A stretch of 64,000 bases of DNA from Gloeocapsopsis crepidinum LEGE 06123 (lineage in GTDB: Bacteria > Cyanobacteriota > Cyanobacteriia > Cyanobacteriales > Chroococcidiopsidaceae), in assembly GCF_015207655.1 (NCBI RefSeq), contig NZ_JADEWN010000001.1:124001-188000 (forward strand), read 5' to 3'. Positions 9,968-41,063 of the stretch are shown in pieces; position 1 is the stretch's first letter; the number at the start of each line of letters is the position of its first letter. The notes beneath the pieces are model-generated. The model ran no database searches, had not been told where the DNA came from, and was given only the letters and a program-made list of their open reading frames with translations. A program made the position numbers and the translations under genes.

Positions 9968-11101
9968 ATGACAAGGAACGGCATTGGTATTCGCACAGCG
10001 CAACTACGTTCTCACCGAGTTGTCGGACAAATTCACGTTTACGATGGTGCCGGAAAAGGTAAGTCTCAAGCAGCTTTAGGCGTCGTTTTACGCTCCATTG
10101 GATTGGGAATTAATACTCGTAGCGCTACCCGCGTTTTGTTACTGCGGTTTCTTAAAGGACCAGGACGTGCTTATGATGAGGATGGCGCGATTGAAGCACT
10201 ACAACAAGGTTTTCCGCATTTAATTGATCAGGTACGCACTGGAAGAGCAGAGTTTTTTAGTGCTGACGAAGTGACTCGTTTTGATCGTCAAGAAGCACGG
10301 CGCGGTTGGGATGTTGCTAAAGGCGCGATCGCTTCTGGCTTATATTCAGTTGTCGTGTTAGATGAACTGAATCCTGTGTTGGATTTAGGATTACTTCCCG
10401 TTGAAGAAGTTGTTCAAACACTCAAATCAAAGCCAGAGGAAGTCGAAATTATTGCGACAGGAAGAGGTGCGCCACAACAACTGCTAGATATAGCCGATTT
10501 ACACTCGGAAATGAAACCTCACCACCATGCGACAGCCGCCGAAAAAGGAATTTCTGGAATTGAAATCTACACAGGTGCCGGTAAAGGTAAATCGACCAGT
10601 GCGTTGGGTAAAGCCTTACAAGCGATTGGGAGAGGAATTAGTCAAGACAAATCACACCGCGTTTTGATTATGCAATGGCTTAAAGGTGGCAGTGGTTATA
10701 CCGAAGACGCCGCGATCGCAGCTTTACAACAGTCATACCCCGCATTAGTCGATCATCAACGTTGCGGGCGCGATGCCATTGTTTGGCGCACTCAACAGCA
10801 AGAATTAGACTATGTAGAAGCAGAACGCGGTTGGGAAATTGCCCGCACAGCGATCGCTTCTGGTTTGTACAAAACTATCATCCTCGATGAACTCAATCCT
10901 ACAGTCGATTTAGAGCTATTACCCATAGAACCGATTGTCCAAGCGCTATTGCGCAAACCCCGCGACACTGAAGTTATCATTACAGGGCGCTGCCACAATC
11001 CACCAGCCTATTTTGATTTAGCTAGCATTCATTCTGAAGTATTCTGCCACAAACACTACGCAAACCAAGGAGTTGAATTAAAGCAAGGCGTAGATTTTTA
11101 G
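9968..11101 (+). CDS. Tandem CobO/BtuR-like P-loop protein
   Basis: 377 residues forming two homologous halves of about 185 each. Half one has Walker A GAGKGKSQAALG (near residue 28) and VVLDELNPVLDLGLL; half two has Walker A GAGKGKSTSALG (near residue 203) and IILDELNPTVDLELL. Both end in a GRGAP/GRCHNPP element and an LHSE/IHSE signature. This is the fold of ATP:cob(I)alamin adenosyltransferases of the CobO type, which adenosylate corrinoids. In CobO the enzyme is normally a homodimer of one such unit, so this gene may be a built-in pseudo-dimer. The RXXXK-type residues that define activity cannot be verified by eye, so the substrate is left open. It precedes a microprotein by 27 bp. Confidence 0.75.
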   Translation: MTRNGIGIRTAQLRSHRVVGQIHVYDGAGKGKSQAALGVVLRSIGLGINTRSATRVLLLRFLKGPGRAYDEDGAIEALQQGFPHLIDQVRTGRAEFFSADEVTRFDRQEARRGWDVAKGAIASGLYSVVVLDELNPVLDLGLLPVEEVVQTLKSKPEEVEIIATGRGAPQQLLDIADLHSEMKPHHHATAAEKGISGIEIYTGAGKGKSTSALGKALQAIGRGISQDKSHRVLIMQWLKGGSGYTEDAAIAALQQSYPALVDHQRCGRDAIVWRTQQQELDYVEAERGWEIARTAIASGLYKTIILDELNPTVDLELLPIEPIVQALLRKPRDTEVIITGRCHNPPAYFDLASIHSEVFCHKHYANQGVELKQGVDF

Positions 11102-12760: not shown

Positions 12761-13456
12761 ATGAATCGTGTTAATTCTTGGCATTCTGGAACAGCTGCGT
12801 TTATGGCACTTGCCGTAACAACGAGTACCATCACTCCTTTAATGTTATCAACTCCTGCAGCTGCGCAACTCTTTCCACAACAACCTTATCCTTCCAGAAC
12901 CTATCCTTCACCAAATTATCCTTCTACTACACAAGTCACAATTCCGGCAGGCACTACAATTCCAGCGCGGTACGATGAAGCTGAACGAATCGTTGTCACT
13001 CCCAACGAAACGATGTCCCTAACCCTGACAGTAGCAACAAACATCATTAACCGTAGCAATACTGTATTAGTTCCCGTTGGAAGTCAAATTGTCGGACAGA
13101 TCCAACCTGTTTATGGTGGTTCGCAGTTTGTGGCAAGAGAACTTGTATTGCCAAATAACCGACGGCAGAGTATCAATGCTTCTTCAAGAGTGTTTAGCCA
13201 AACTCAAGAAATCACCAGAGGTTCCAACACGAATTCGATCTTAAAAGGTGCAGCTATTGGCGCAGCAGCAGCAGCAGCAGTCGCAGCAATTACAGGCGAT
13301 CGCGCGATCGCAACTGAAGAAGTCCTCGGTGGTGCTGGATTAGGAGCATTAGGAGGAGTTTTACTAGGACGCAGACGCGCTGAAGTTCTTGTCATCAATC
13401 CTACGACAGATCTTAATCTAACACTTAACTCAAATCTGCCATTGTCTACCTACTAA
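12761..13456 (+). CDS. Secreted protein with glycine-zipper segment, unknown function
   Basis: 231 residues. A signal peptide of about 35 residues ends in TPAAAQ. A Pro/Tyr/Ser-rich linker follows (about 36-57), then a beta-rich domain with VTIPAGTTIPARYDEAERIVV and VLVPVGSQIVGQIQPV, and near residue 165 an Ala/Gly-rich stretch GAAIGAAAAAAVAAITG plus GGAGLGALGGVLLGRRR, a glycine-zipper-like membrane-associating motif. The domain recalls VirB10/TrbI-type or slr-class cyanobacterial envelope proteins, but no function is established. AAGGAGA lies 12 nt upstream of the ATG, supporting the start. It is followed by the leader region of the ThrRS gene. Confidence 0.72.
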   Translation: MNRVNSWHSGTAAFMALAVTTSTITPLMLSTPAAAQLFPQQPYPSRTYPSPNYPSTTQVTIPAGTTIPARYDEAERIVVTPNETMSLTLTVATNIINRSNTVLVPVGSQIVGQIQPVYGGSQFVARELVLPNNRRQSINASSRVFSQTQEITRGSNTNSILKGAAIGAAAAAAVAAITGDRAIATEEVLGGAGLGALGGVLLGRRRAEVLVINPTTDLNLTLNSNLPLSTY

Positions 13457-13591
13457 TCAGAGAAACTAGTTAACTTTATTGAATGGGCAGGCAGGATGCC
13501 TAACCTACATCACTCCCAATGACGCATATGAAAAGCGGGTAGCTAATTGTATGTTTGCCTGCTAGAGGTGTTATTTAGTTTTCCTGGGTGC

Positions 13592-13621
13592 TTGACATCT
13601 GCTGGAGAATTGAGCTATAGA
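13592..13621 (+). promoter_or_regulatory. Sigma70-type promoter for the ThrRS leader
   Basis: TTGACA at 13592-13597 and TATAGA at 13616-13621 are separated by 18 bp, a near-consensus housekeeping promoter. Transcription would start near 13628, about 23 nt before the first leader peptide ATG and about 330 nt before the synthetase start codon. Confidence 0.65.
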
Positions 13622-13650
13622 AGATATACCAGAACAGAAATTTTCTCATA

Positions 13651-13713
13651 ATGAAAATAGCGCTTGCCCTTATCACCATTACCACCACAACTATCCATTT
13701 AGGAGGGTCATAA
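13651..13713 (+). CDS. Threonine-rich leader peptide 1
   Basis: A 20-codon frame reads MKIALALITITTTTIHLGGS. Five Thr codons lie in six codons (9 and 11-14), flanked by Ile codons, closely resembling in style the ThrL leader of enteric bacteria. The two Gly codons form GGAGGG at 13702-13707, exactly complementary to CCCTCC at 13750-13755 in the following terminator arm. A ribosome stalled on the Thr codons would leave GGAGGG free to pair with that arm; a ribosome reaching the stop codon would cover it. No Shine-Dalgarno stands out. Confidence 0.72.
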   Translation: MKIALALITITTTTIHLGGS

Positions 13714-13748
13714 GGCGCTGCACTGAAATCAATCTTACTGCTTTATTC

Positions 13749-13784
13749 GCCCTCCAGACCAACTCTGGGGGGCAATATTTTTGA
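13749..13784 (+). terminator. Attenuator 1 (intrinsic terminator-like hairpin)
   Basis: GCCCTCCAGA (13749-13758) pairs with TCTGGGGGGC (13764-13773) over 10 bp with one G-U pair and loop CCAAC, followed by aatatttttg. The left arm is also complementary to GGAGGG in leader 1, giving mutually exclusive structures. The U-tract is weaker than that of attenuator 2. Confidence 0.7.
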
Positions 13785-13801
13785 ATTAATAAAGAATACC
13801 C

Positions 13802-13867
13802 ATGTTGTTAATAATGCCACTTGCCACAAACACTACCACCACTACCATCACGCCAGGAGGGACGTGA
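13802..13867 (+). CDS. Threonine-rich leader peptide 2
   Basis: The frame opens at ATG 13802 (21 codons) or at the in-frame ATG 13814 (17 codons, MPLATNTTTTTITPGGT). Eight of the 17 residues are Thr, five of them consecutive (ACT ACC ACC ACT ACC). As in leader 1, the frame ends in two Gly codons read from GGAGGG (13856-13861), one codon before the stop, and this is complementary to CCCTCC at 13896-13901. Conservation of the Thr run, the Gly-Gly segment and its distance to a terminator in two successive copies argues strongly that both are real. Confidence 0.72.
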   Translation: MLLIMPLATNTTTTTITPGGT

Positions 13868-13896
13868 CGATTGATTGTGTATGCAATTTATCTATC

Positions 13897-13927
13897 CCTC
13901 CAAGCCAGCTTTGGAGGTTTTTTTATT
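13897..13927 (+). terminator. Attenuator 2 (intrinsic terminator)
   Basis: CCTCCAAG (13897-13904) pairs with TTTGGAGG (13910-13917), with one G-U pair and loop CCAGC, followed directly by seven T residues at 13918-13924. It sits 35 bp before the ThrRS ATG. With GGAGGG of leader 2 as alternative partner, it forms the second terminator/antiterminator switch. Confidence 0.82.
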
Positions 13928-13959
13928 GCTTAATGGTTGATTTAATAGGAGAAACAAAA

Positions 13960-15177
13960 ATGGCAGATCACCGCGAACTCGCAAGGGATATGGACTTGTT
14001 TCATTTTGAGGAGCATAGTCCAGGAATGGTGTTTTGGCACCCCCAGGGGCTGCGGCTTTTGCGCAGCATTGAAAACTTTATGCAGCAGATTTATCAAGCC
14101 CATGAATTTGAAGAAGTGCGATCGCCTATTGTTCTCAAGCGATCGCTATGGGAACGTTCAGGGCATTGGGAAAAATTTGGCAAGGGGATGTTTGTAGTTG
14201 GCAGCAAAAAAGCAGATGAAGATAATGCAGCCCAATCCATCATTGACGCTGACTATGCACTGAAGCCCATGTCTTGTCCTGCCCATATTGCCATTTATCA
14301 ATCTCACAAGCGCAGTTATCGAGAGAATCCTATGCGATTGATGGAGTTTGGGATATGTCATCGCAACGAATCTGGGACATTATCAGGCTGTATGCGACTG
14401 CGACAGTTTGTCCAGGATGATGCTCATATCTTTTGCCGAGAATCTGATGTGCAGCATGAAATTGGTAATTTTCTCAAGATGGTACAGCAAGTTTACGTTG
14501 CCTTTGGCTATAATCAGTTTTCCCTACAAATTTCCCTCAGACCCCAGCACCGACTTGGCTCTGATCGCTTATGGGATCGCGCTGAATCTCTGTTAATTGA
14601 GACAGTGCAATCTTTGGGGTACAGTTATCAATTAGCTCCGAATGAAGGAGCATTCTATGGTCCAAAACTCGAAATCAGTTTGCAAGATCACTTGGGGCGA
14701 TCGTGGCAGTGTGGCACATTTCAAGTTGATTTCAATCTTCCTCAAATATTTGAGTTAGCGTTTGTGAATGAACGGGGAGAATTGGAACGTCCTATAATGC
14801 TACACCAGGCAATTTTAGGGTCACTAGAGCGTTGGATTGGCATTTTGTTAGAACACCATCGCGGTATCCTCCCTGTTTGGGCTGCTCCTACACAAGTTGC
14901 GATTGCCTCTATTTCTAATAAAGCCTCTGTCTGGGCGGAAACGATTTTCTCTCGGCTCAAGCAACTGGGGGTTAGGGTAGAACTTGACAACCAAGATCAG
15001 ACAATCAGCAAGAAAATTCGAGAACTCTCTAAACGCAGGATTCCAGTGATTGCAATTGTAGGCGAGCAGGAAGCTAAGAGCAAAACGTTGAATCTGCGGT
15101 GTTTAGGTGCTGTAGAACAACAAGAAATCAGCCTTGCTCAACTTGAGCATAAATTGGTAGAGCTTGTCATGCCGTAG
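13960..15177 (+). CDS. thrS: Threonyl-tRNA synthetase, short form lacking TGS and editing domains
   Basis: 405 residues from ATG 13960, preceded by AGGAGA at 13947; longer in-frame starts run back through terminator 2 and are rejected. The protein begins where the catalytic core of ordinary ThrRS begins (DHRELARDMDLFHFEEHSPG) and holds class II motif 1 (FWHPQG), motif 2 (EFGICHRNE) and motif 3 (AILGSLERW), then the anticodon-binding domain (VWAAPTQVAI to the end). The zinc ligands Cys in MSCPAH, His in QDDAHIFC and His in MLHQAI are kept. The roughly 240-residue N-terminal TGS and proofreading domains are absent. Cyanobacteria such as Anabaena PCC 7120 have a second, proofreading-impaired ThrRS (T2) induced at low zinc; this is the likely counterpart. 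Control here appears to be by two Thr-codon attenuators. Confidence 0.88.
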   Translation: MADHRELARDMDLFHFEEHSPGMVFWHPQGLRLLRSIENFMQQIYQAHEFEEVRSPIVLKRSLWERSGHWEKFGKGMFVVGSKKADEDNAAQSIIDADYALKPMSCPAHIAIYQSHKRSYRENPMRLMEFGICHRNESGTLSGCMRLRQFVQDDAHIFCRESDVQHEIGNFLKMVQQVYVAFGYNQFSLQISLRPQHRLGSDRLWDRAESLLIETVQSLGYSYQLAPNEGAFYGPKLEISLQDHLGRSWQCGTFQVDFNLPQIFELAFVNERGELERPIMLHQAILGSLERWIGILLEHHRGILPVWAAPTQVAIASISNKASVWAETIFSRLKQLGVRVELDNQDQTISKKIRELSKRRIPVIAIVGEQEAKSKTLNLRCLGAVEQQEISLAQLEHKLVELVMP

Positions 15178-38432: not shown

Positions 38433-39491
38433 GTGACAACTGTTGCTAAGAGTCCACTTTCAGTGGAGCAAGATCTAGCAGAGTCTCCTTGGTGGGCAGG
38501 TAACGCCCGTCTCACAAATCTATCGGGTAAGTTACTCGGTGCTCATGTTGCCCATTCCGGCTTAATTGTGTTGTGGGCAGGAGCAATGACATTGTTTGAA
38601 CTGGGTCATTTTAATCCGGCAAAACCAATGTATGAGCAGGGCTTAATTTTGCTACCGCATCTAGCAGCCCAAGGTTGGGGAGTTGGTGCTAACGGTGCTG
38701 TGGTAGATACGTATCCGTATTTTGCGATCGCTGTTATTCACCTCATCTCATCAGCATTTCTAGGATTTGGTGGCATCTTTCATTCCTTGCGTGGTCCAGA
38801 AAGGTTGGAACGAAAATTTTCTTTTTTTGGCTACGATTGGGCAGATACTAACAAAATGACGACAATTCTGGGTATTCACCTTGTTTTACTCGGAATTGGT
38901 GCCTTTCTCTTAGTTGCTAAGGCAATGTACTTTGGAGGTTTGTATGACCCAAATGTTGAAAATGTCCGGCTTGTAACTAACCCAACGCTCGATCCTACAG
39001 TTATTTATGGCTATCTCTTTGGTGCTGTTGGTAGGTTCTGGATTGCTGGCGTTGACAATCTTGAAGATGTTGTCGGCGGTCATATCTGGGTTGGTGGAAT
39101 GTTAATTTTTGGTGGGTTATTCCACATTGTGACTAAGCCTTTTCGCTGGACTTATCCGTTCTTTGTTTGGTCAGGAGAAGCTTATCTTTCCTATAGTTTG
39201 GGCGCTTTGGCGTTAATGGGGTTTATTGCAACACTGTTTGTCTCGGTTAATACGACTGTTTATCCAGAAGTCTTTTATGGTCCAGCATTGGTAGTACGGC
39301 AGAACGTTGTGCCTTACTTTTCATCGCCCGATCCTAATTTAGTCACCTCTCGCACGTGGCTTGCTAATGCTCATTTTTGGTTAGCGTTTTTCTTTTTGCA
39401 AGGACATATTTGGCATGCTTTGCGATCGCGTGGTTTAGATTTTCGTAAAGGTCGCATTAGTGAGAATGCTGTCATTCCTCAACCTAGTTAA
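38433..39491 (+). CDS. isiA: Iron-stress chlorophyll-binding protein IsiA (CP43')
   Basis: 352 residues from GTG 38433. Six transmembrane helices with the conserved chlorophyll-ligand His residues typical of CP43/Pcb proteins: [99 protein letters not shown] and [25 protein letters not shown]. The large lumenal loop of true CP43 is missing, which defines IsiA. It forms antenna rings around photosystem I, or stores and dissipates energy, under iron limitation. First gene of the isi operon. Confidence 0.93.
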
Positions 39492-39560: not shown

Positions 39561-41063
39561 ATGACTGCGGTAATTTCAGATAGCCCTTACAAGAATCAAA
39601 TTCCTGATGTGGGCTGGTGGGCTGGTAATTTTCGTCTGACAAACTTATCAGGTAAGTTATTAGGTGCGCACGTTGCTCATGCAGGTTTAATCTTGCTGTG
39701 GGCTGGAGGAATGACACTGTTTGAGTTGTCGCGCTTTCATCCTGATCAACCGATGTACGAGCAAGGGTTGATTTTGCTACCGCATCTAGCCACATTAGGC
39801 TTTGGTGTCGGGGCTGGCGGACAAGTTGTTAGTACCTATCCCTACTTCGTAATTGCTGTTTTGCATCTGATACCATCAGTTATTCTGGCAGCAGGAGGGC
39901 TTTATCACGCTCTGTTAGGACCCGAAGTTTTAGAAGATAATCCGACCTTAGCTGGTTTTTTTGGCTACGACTGGAAAGACAAAGACAAAATCACGTCTAT
40001 TTTAGGCATTCACCTCATACTTTTAGGCTTGGGTGCATTGCTACTCGTTGCCAAAGCAATGTTCTGGGGCGGATTGTTTGACCCTTGGGCAAGTGGTGGC
40101 GGTGATGTGCGCGTCATCAGTCATCCCACACTCAACCCTATCCGCATTTTTGGCTACCTATTCGGGGCTTGGGGTTCAGAAGGAATGGCAGCGGTAGATA
40201 ACTTAGAAGACGTTGTCGGCGGTCACATTTGGGTTGGATTAATGCTAATTGGTGGTGGACTGTTCCACATCTTGACGCAACCGTTTGCATGGGCGCGACG
40301 CATTTTAATTTATTCAGGCGAAGCTTATCTTTCTTACAGTATTGGTGCTGTTGCCTACATGGGCTTCTTTGCTGCCTACTTTGCGTGGGTCAATAATACT
40401 GTGTATCCAGAAGTTTTTTACGGGCCGGTACATGCTTTAGAATCTGCGCCTGGATTGGTTTCTGTTCGTGGTTGGCTGGTGACATTCCATGTTGTTTTAG
40501 CCTTAATCTTTCTCATTGGTCATATTTGGCACGCCCTCCGCGCCCGCGCTGTTGCGGCTGGATTTGATTTTAAAAAAGGCGACATGGTTCAGCCACCACA
40601 AAATCCTCAAACAGCAACCGCAATCAGTTCTCAAGATGTGACATTGAACTTTCTCAAATACCTACCAATTTATCGCCCAGGAATTAACCCTTTGGCGCGA
40701 GGATTAGAAATTGGGATGGCACATGGTTATTGGCTAGTTGGTCCTTTTGCTGTATTAGGTTCTATTGGTACATTACGCGATGCCAATGTTGGCGATCTTG
40801 TTGGTTTACTCGCTGCTGGAGGTTTAATTCTCCTGCTGACCATCGGTTTTTCAATTTACGGCACTACCAAACTAGAAAAACGCCTAGAGACTTTGCCAAG
40901 ACCAGCTTTTGCAGCAACAGTTCCCAACGTTCCTGAAGCTTTGCAAAACGTAGACGAGTGGAGTCAGTTTACAACAGGCTTTTTCATTGGTGGCATTGGT
41001 GGCGCAATTTTTGCGTACTTACTTTTGAATAGCTGGCGTGCATTTGTGGCGATCGCCAATTAA
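39561..41063 (+). CDS. IsiA-PsaL fusion protein
   Basis: 500 residues with AAGGAG before the ATG. Residues 1-340 are a complete six-helix IsiA/CP43' unit ([65 protein letters not shown]). After a short linker (about 341-357) the remainder matches photosystem I subunit Psa[40 protein letters not shown] is the PsaL helix A region and [21 protein letters not shown] the last helix. PsaL sits at the PSI trimerisation face, so the fusion should plug its antenna domain directly into monomeric or dimeric PSI. Such fusions are known in some cyanobacteria but are not universal. Second gene of the isi operon, 69 bp behind isiA. Confidence 0.93.

Follow-up and report, generated by a model that had tools for sequence, protein, structure and literature searches.

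Two putative threonine-codon attenuators in series upstream of an auxiliary threonyl-tRNA synthetase gene in cyanobacteria

The enteric thr, his and trp leaders combine a leader peptide rich in cognate codons, alternative 2:3 and 3:4 hairpins and an intrinsic terminator located before the gene. Vecchione and Sello are said to have found in 2010 that an auxiliary, antibiotic-resistant trpRS of Streptomyces coelicolor is under ribosome-mediated attenuation. At the thrL-thrS locus of Streptomyces lividans, a Thr-containing leader peptide has been reported upstream of thrS, as far as the available part of the source goes (PMC8079986). The leader RNA of Salmonella mgtCBR carries two leader ORFs with attenuators, according to the accessible sections of the paper concerned (PMC3641672). 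In Anabaena, low zinc disables the main threonyl-tRNA synthetase (ThrRS), upon which a second, Zur-controlled ThrRS, T2, takes over; a form of T2 without the N-terminal subdomains has null editing (PMC4787780, available in part). With regard to cyanobacteria, a paper from 2016, of which likewise only a part was available, states that there are no reliable data on an attenuation mechanism (PMC4833913), in agreement with a preliminary description of the locus treated here, in which peptide attenuation was called hardly described in this phylum. Searches of open-licence literature gave no report of this leader or of thrS peptide attenuation in cyanobacteria; subscription papers were mostly not covered, and the absence of a report is no proof. 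As far as found in the literature searched, the classical logic is known, while the phylum and the doubling are new.

The locus described here most probably (a probability of about 0.88) carries two leader-peptide transcription attenuators in series, controlling an auxiliary, editing-less ThrRS and induced by uncharged tRNA-Thr. The anatomy of the leader, its conservation, its specificity for the short gene and its change of fold under ribosome masks are results of this analysis.

The short synthetase gene and its double leader

The window, i.e., the whole 64-kb stretch of DNA that was analysed, encodes a short ThrRS of 405 aa at 13960–15177 on the + strand, matched by Pfam PF00587 and PF03129 and by TIGR00418 thrS. 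Pfam recognizes the class II core (PF00587) and the anticodon-binding domain (PF03129) only, the TIGR00418 profile is matched from profile position 171 onward, and the protein aligns with residues 242–610 of 1qf6_A, a chain of 642 residues. The short ThrRS thus begins at the catalytic part of the full-length enzyme, the TGS and editing domains being absent. In the 1qf6_A alignment it retains the Cys, His and His of the motifs MNCPGH, DDAHIF and MIHRAI, presumably the zinc ligands of ThrRS. The source genome (5.67 Mb) encodes one full-length ThrRS besides the short one, and no Thr leader is present in the stretch upstream of that full-length gene.

The leader transcript has its putative promoter at 13592–13621 (+), composed of TTGACA at 13592–13597, an 18-nt spacer and TATAGA at 13616–13621. 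It is missing from the listing of the program's promoter scan because the rule applied there demands a T as the last base of the -10 hexamer. Of 21 orthologous loci (L189 being left out), 19 have TTGACA ahead of leader 1, followed after 16–18 nt by a -10-like hexamer that ends 25–49 nt before leader 1. As read from the sequence, leader peptide 1, MKIALALITITTTTIHLGGS plus stop codon, occupies 13651–13713 (+) and has five Thr in codons 9–14, without an evident Shine–Dalgarno region. Within this unit, segment 1 is CCTTAT at 13668–13673 (+), a candidate competitor for segment 2 by way of the ATAAGG at 13710–13715. Segment 2 spans 13702–13715 (+), i.e., GGAGGG (13702–13707) up to the stop-codon flank ATAAGG, and is predicted to pair with segment 3 while region 4 is unmade. 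Segment 3 is the left arm of intrinsic terminator 1 (13749–13782, +), with a 10-pair stem of 13749–13758 and 13764–13773 and a T-rich tail to 13782, and includes the CCCTCC site at 13750–13755.

The second unit repeats this arrangement. Leader peptide 2, MLLIMPLATNTTTTTITPGGT plus stop codon, is read from 13802–13867 (+) and has eight Thr, five of which are consecutive; an alternative in-frame ATG at 13814 would give 17 codons. Segment 2 of this unit, GGAGGGACGTGA including the stop codon (13856–13867, +), owes its assignment to the conserved GGAGGG at 13856–13861, and the corresponding CCCTCC lies at 13896–13901 (+). Intrinsic terminator 2 (13897–13924, +) has an 8-pair stem, 13897–13904 with 13910–13917, then TTTTTTT, the left arm again being segment 3. 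AGGAGA precedes the ThrRS ATG at 13960. Promoter, leaders, terminators, AGGAGA and ThrRS start had all been pointed out in the preliminary description, and sequence reading together with the terminator scan finds each of them in its place. The same description had GGAGGG, read as Gly-Gly, just before each stop; the six bases are there, but one codon (Ser or Thr) intervenes before the stop.

A terminator scan of 13300–14200 yields just terminators 1 and 2 (two found versus 0.7 expected in shuffles), and Thr-run mini-ORFs (10–30 codons from ATG or GTG, with at least four Thr in six codons) are limited to leaders 1 and 2 on both strands of the 64 kb. None of 1000 dinucleotide shuffles of 13592–13960 produces a unit of leader plus terminator.

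GGAGGG was also considered as a ribosome site for reinitiation and rejected on inspection, as the GTG in GGAGGGACGTGA lies only two bases off and unit 1 has no fitting start. That GTG, at 13864 and overlapping the stop of leader 2, opens a frame continuous with ThrRS (an ORF of 437 residues); L141 and L142 share this open frame, L036 does not. Elsewhere in the window, 9968–11101 (+) encodes a 377-residue protein with two BtuR/CobO stretches, i.e., a tandem corrinoid adenosyltransferase. The - strand has two matches to the IsrR antisense RNA, at 38838–39015 (146.6 bits) and 39972–40158 (133.3 bits), at a distance of about 1.1 kb, as in a duplicated isiA-type region.

Distribution, conservation and origin

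ThrRS genes were sought in three overlapping genome samples, drawn from the phylum (386 genomes), the order (388) and the class (388). No further short ThrRS was found in the phylum sample at 1e-100, the other 28 matches being full-length frames of 639–746 residues. The order and class samples each gave nine besides the window's own, with carriers from other orders in the class sample. Acaryochloris marina MBIC10699 has one on each of two conjugative plasmids, and one further locus (L189 in genome G634), cut by a contig end, was found via the unit-2 RNA model. This brings the number of short-ThrRS loci to 22, from cyanobacteria of at least two orders and the two Acaryochloris plasmids.

Unit 1, i.e., a Thr-rich leader, the core motif and a terminator, is present in 22/22 of these loci and unit 2 in 21/22. 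The lack of a Thr run or of a complementary pair in orthologues had been named beforehand as a refutation of the attenuator, and both have turned out to be conserved. GGAGGG is exact in 21 of 22 first units (GGGGGG in L039) and in 19 of 21 second units; the exceptions are L032 (GGAGAG) and L154 (AGAGGG), which have a mismatch in the unit-2 core. CCCTC is found in the left arm of the terminator in all 43 units. A strict terminator rule (loop of at most 9, no bulge) holds in 15 of 22 cases for unit 1 and in 19 of 21 for unit 2; the remaining nine, inspected by eye, have stems of 5–7 pairs, loops of about 10–13 and a T run. Frame, stop, GGAGGG and terminator are preserved jointly at 65–70% ThrRS identity. 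The locus without unit 2 (L153, genome G714) shows a decayed version of it, with a Thr-bearing relic leader about 100–280 nt upstream of thrS that lacks GGAGGG and terminator; its thrS is still open, which makes it a natural single-unit case. In another locus (L155, genome G789), the short ThrRS frame contains one TAG and both leaders are intact.

The leader is specific for the short gene. With L189 left out, a Thr-run leader precedes 21/21 short versus 0/136 full-length ThrRS genes. The full-length controls comprise 31 cyanobacterial loci, 28 from other cyanobacterial families and 77 proteobacterial loci, the last counted out of at least 80, as three had too little upstream DNA. A search of 376 genomes of the order with the unit-2 model gave matches below 1e-8 in nine genomes, each directly before a short thrS, and nine weaker matches away from thrS (3.4e-5 to 9.9e-4), six of which were inspected (L190–L194 and L196) and have no Thr run. 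A wider genomic role was not apparent from a more general pattern either: over the 19 carrier genomes it matched 10, off thrS only in G808 and G747, and in the source genome it matched once, at unit 2. Among the weaker matches, L192–L197 of genus g22 (7.7e-4 to 9.9e-4) represent a conserved hairpin that ends in a T-rich tail and precedes the start of a metK-like gene. This label is the author's reading of the protein start, and L192–L194 and L196, the ones inspected, are without a Thr run.

Over 21 copies of leader 1, Thr accounts for 132 of the 428 codons (31%), and over 20 copies of leader 2 for 169 of 442 (38%), with a median of six Thr codons per leader in unit 1 and nine in unit 2; all four Thr codons occur. 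Thr occupies position -4 of unit 1 in 20 of 21 loci and, in unit 2, each of positions -5 and -6 in 19 of 20, and some loci have weak unit-1 runs (four in L151 and L155). In pairwise comparisons of the run region, non-synonymous differences outnumber synonymous ones (872 versus 438 and 589 versus 437), which indicates that the run is maintained as Thr-rich and not position by position. In L040, leader 1 stops before GGAGGG, and in L189 leader 2 reads GGAGGG in another frame (TPRRVVT, then stop); the six bases are still there in both, so that it is the RNA and not Gly-Gly that is conserved.

A ThrRS tree of 88 rows was built from the 21 short enzymes, 31 plus two other full-length enzymes of the cyanobacterial phylum and a remainder thinned to every third row (8 of 26 from f25 and 26 of at least 80 proteobacterial). 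In this tree the short ThrRS group as a single clade (100/100) with a long stem, separate from the full-length enzymes of cyanobacteria; among the rows included, those closest to it come from alphaproteobacteria, a placement of weak support (81/50). The window's enzyme pairs with that of G730 from another order (96/93), and the Acaryochloris plasmid genes pair with that of G781, again from another order (99/93). These cross-order pairings suggest that short thrS moves between hosts. Each of the two deep branches of the gene tree contains loci with both units. In every one of the 19 carrier genomes open to counting, the short ThrRS is accompanied by one or more full-length ThrRS (three have two matches, one of them partial), which makes the short ThrRS an addition and not a replacement. 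On the Acaryochloris plasmid pREC1 (L141, 1151–2641), cysS stands divergently beside the short thrS as a second synthetase on the plasmid; no Cys leader was seen by eye upstream of this cysS.

Alternative pairings and folding under ribosome masks

The antiterminator helix 2:3 shares the left arm of the terminator and is mutually exclusive with it. When segment 4 is left out, RNAalifold returns the GGAGGG:CCCTCC pairing as the consensus in four of four subsets. The 2:3 pairing can be formed in 89–99% of cells and 3:4 in 87–98%, versus 32–69% in slid controls, those for 2:3 alone reaching 39–69%. Terminator 1 is paired in 97.7% of cells (13 main-clade loci) and terminator 2 in 93.8% (20 loci); the figures for the unit-2 terminator and the clade-B terminator 1 were measured together with the other helix or stem part. 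The core of the unit-1 1:2 helix reaches 96.0% of cells and the whole 10-pair helix 88.2%, versus 28–50% when slid, without excess covariation over shuffles. The local hairpin of unit 2 is 92.9% paired, yet not dominant.

Covariation is weak. The preliminary description had expected orthologues to conserve Thr runs together with GGAGGG/CCCTCC covariation: Thr runs, GGAGGG and CCCTC are indeed conserved, but the covariation is mostly absent. No excess over shuffles was found for the unit-2 pairings or for the main-clade unit-1 pairings. Only clade B departs from this: there, four pairs of terminator 1 are changed on both sides (a score reached by 3 of 500 shuffles) and, as a slight signal, two pairs of the unit-1 2:3 helix (reached by 70 of 500). 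Examples from unit 1 are GTGAG/CTCAC (L037), GTGAA/TTCAC (L034) and GTAAGG/CCTTAC (L038). Altogether, paired changes are sparse, and most of them affect flanking pairs and the stems of the terminators. The weak signal in GGAGGG/CCCTCC itself follows from the near invariance of this core, which may in turn be explained by its having to fit segment 2 and segment 4 alike, although this is an inference.

Folding was repeated with a ribosome masking 18 nt upstream and 14 nt downstream of the start of the A site, a size chosen by the author, on 21 first and 20 second units. The antiterminator score (maximum 1.2) describes the 2:3 helix in transcripts that stop short of segment 4. It is 0.00 in 41/41 units when the ribosome sits at the stop codon, while a ribosome at the second Thr codon gives means of 1.09 (first units) and 1.11 (second units). 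The masked folding that had been proposed as a check thus comes out as anticipated, the ribosome at the stop abolishing the antiterminator and an early stall restoring it. A ribosome at the last Thr before GGAGGG gives means of only 0.09 and 0.38, so a stall at this codon is predicted by the model to leave segment 2 unfreed in most units. Without translation, the means are 0.49 for first and 1.15 for second units (1.13 and 1.20 for the window's own), second units folding into the antiterminator almost always. In 11 of 21 first units, the window's not among them, the untranslated antiterminator is weak (at most 0.21 of 1.2), apparently owing to competition from a segment further upstream. For finished transcripts, the terminator score averages 1.00 and 0.98 (first and second units) with the ribosome at the stop, and still 0.88 and 0.73 with a stalled ribosome. 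As the terminator dominates at equilibrium even during a stall, the switch must be kinetic, decided before segment 4 is made. This is also the accepted view of classical attenuators.

Proposed mechanism, rival readings and known systems

The ribosome-stalling logic put forward in the preliminary description is supported by orthologue conservation and masked folding, the function itself being inferred. In the proposed sequence of events, RNA polymerase would start at 13592–13621 and a ribosome would follow on leader 1. With ample Thr-tRNA, the ribosome would get as far as the stop and cover segment 2, leaving segments 3 and 4 to pair into the terminator. With too little, it would halt in the Thr run, and the free segment 2 would capture segment 3 ahead of the synthesis of segment 4. 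After readthrough of unit 1 the polymerase would reach leader 2, where the identical test would be repeated, and thrS would be reached only by transcripts passing both units. From this need for two stalls, the preliminary description inferred that the response to uncharged tRNA-Thr would be sharp. The short ThrRS would then be made when the resident full-length enzyme fails to keep tRNA-Thr charged, the possible triggers being Thr starvation, zinc loss of the resident ThrRS or an inhibitor. Transcription start, leader translation, termination, the Thr response and the physiological trigger are all inferred, in the absence of expression, ribosome or 3′-end data.

Several other readings of the leader have to be weighed. 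ACC/ACT-rich low-complexity sequence might lie by chance near two ordinary terminators, and the runs are compositionally simple and show the non-synonymous excess given above; set against the empty shuffles, the sole occurrence in 64 kb, the restriction of Thr-run leaders to short genes and the joint preservation of frame, stop, GGAGGG and terminator, chance can be put aside, and is, as far as sequence comparison can decide, already refuted by the orthologues. Control by a T-box-like element or, as with E. coli thrS, by an operator that binds ThrRS is known from thrS genes of other bacteria, and with such a direct RNA sensor the Thr runs would be incidental. This is very improbable, as an RNA sensor does not need Thr-run frames conserved in place before the switch. 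Moreover, no Rfam family is matched in the leader at gathering score (no model of the E. coli thrS operator was included), nor a T-box in the whole window; in the scan of 13590–13960, T-box and Thr-leader families are missing even up to E 10. The best of the amino-acid leader families is His_leader, with 19.3 bits versus a cut-off of 49.

It is conceivable, albeit unlikely, that regulation rests with just one unit, the other being a duplication relic or a constitutive terminator. L153 keeps an open thrS without unit 2, and unit 1 has fewer Thr codons with some weak runs, which would suit this explanation; the retention of both units in 21/22 loci and in both deep branches of the gene tree does not. 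There is only a slim chance that the leaders sense general translation stress, i.e., slow or antibiotic-halted ribosomes, instead of specifically uncharged tRNA-Thr. Any stall before segment 2 yields the identical fold in the model, and leader ORFs sensing ribosome-targeting antibiotics have been reported in E. coli, according to the part of the source at hand (PMC12121999). However, the leaders of divergent loci keep their share of Thr codons as the remaining residues change, and in 22/22 loci the gene under control encodes a ThrRS.

Attenuation in series by uncharged tRNA-Thr, the preferred reading, leaves the purpose of the double gate to be accounted for. By analogy with the N-terminal-less T2 with its null editing (PMC4787780, in the portion available), the short ThrRS may mischarge serine unless the full-length ThrRS edits in trans; its activity is itself inferred. 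With such mischarging, a tight double gate would make sense. A tentative and rather doubtful extension is that of a mobile, self-contained rescue module: the editing-less ThrRS would have spread between cyanobacteria, also via conjugative plasmids, and its two same-signal attenuators would multiply, keeping it strictly silent until tRNA-Thr charging collapses, a gate that would exist since leaky serine mischarging is harmful. If true, the module would be a switch for inducible mistranslation or inhibitor resistance. The locus in any case provides comparative evidence for peptide-mediated attenuation in cyanobacteria, with implications for the tightness of transcription–translation coupling in these bacteria. 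As a natural same-codon attenuator with two units in series, it makes the question why a gene is gated twice with one signal directly testable.

Compared with the enteric attenuators, the cyanobacterial leader shares the cognate-codon peptide, the alternative 2:3 and 3:4 hairpins and the intrinsic terminator before the gene. Unlike these, it would control an aminoacyl-tRNA synthetase and has two units in series; its segment 2 includes the stop codon, and a stable 1:2 hairpin is no general feature. With the S. coelicolor trpRS the proposed control has in common that an auxiliary synthetase is switched on by stalling at codons for its own amino acid, in that case Trp in an actinobacterium and here Thr in cyanobacteria. 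The S. lividans thrL differs in having two Thr and a single leader in another phylum, and termination is stated to be unclear in the part of the report that was available (PMC8079986). The two units of Salmonella mgtCBR respond to different signals, ATP and proline, and are additive, at least in the sections accessible (PMC3641672), whereas both cyanobacterial units have runs of one codon type. The T1/T2 pair of Anabaena again includes an inducible second ThrRS with impaired proofreading in a cyanobacterium; in T2 the N-terminal domains are retained, and control is exerted via Zur and zinc instead of a leader peptide (PMC4787780, as far as available). By analogy, a Thr-tRNA sensor could serve the same end as this zinc control, and the present locus, beside T2, would tie an inducible, editing-less spare synthetase to the sensing of its own substrate.
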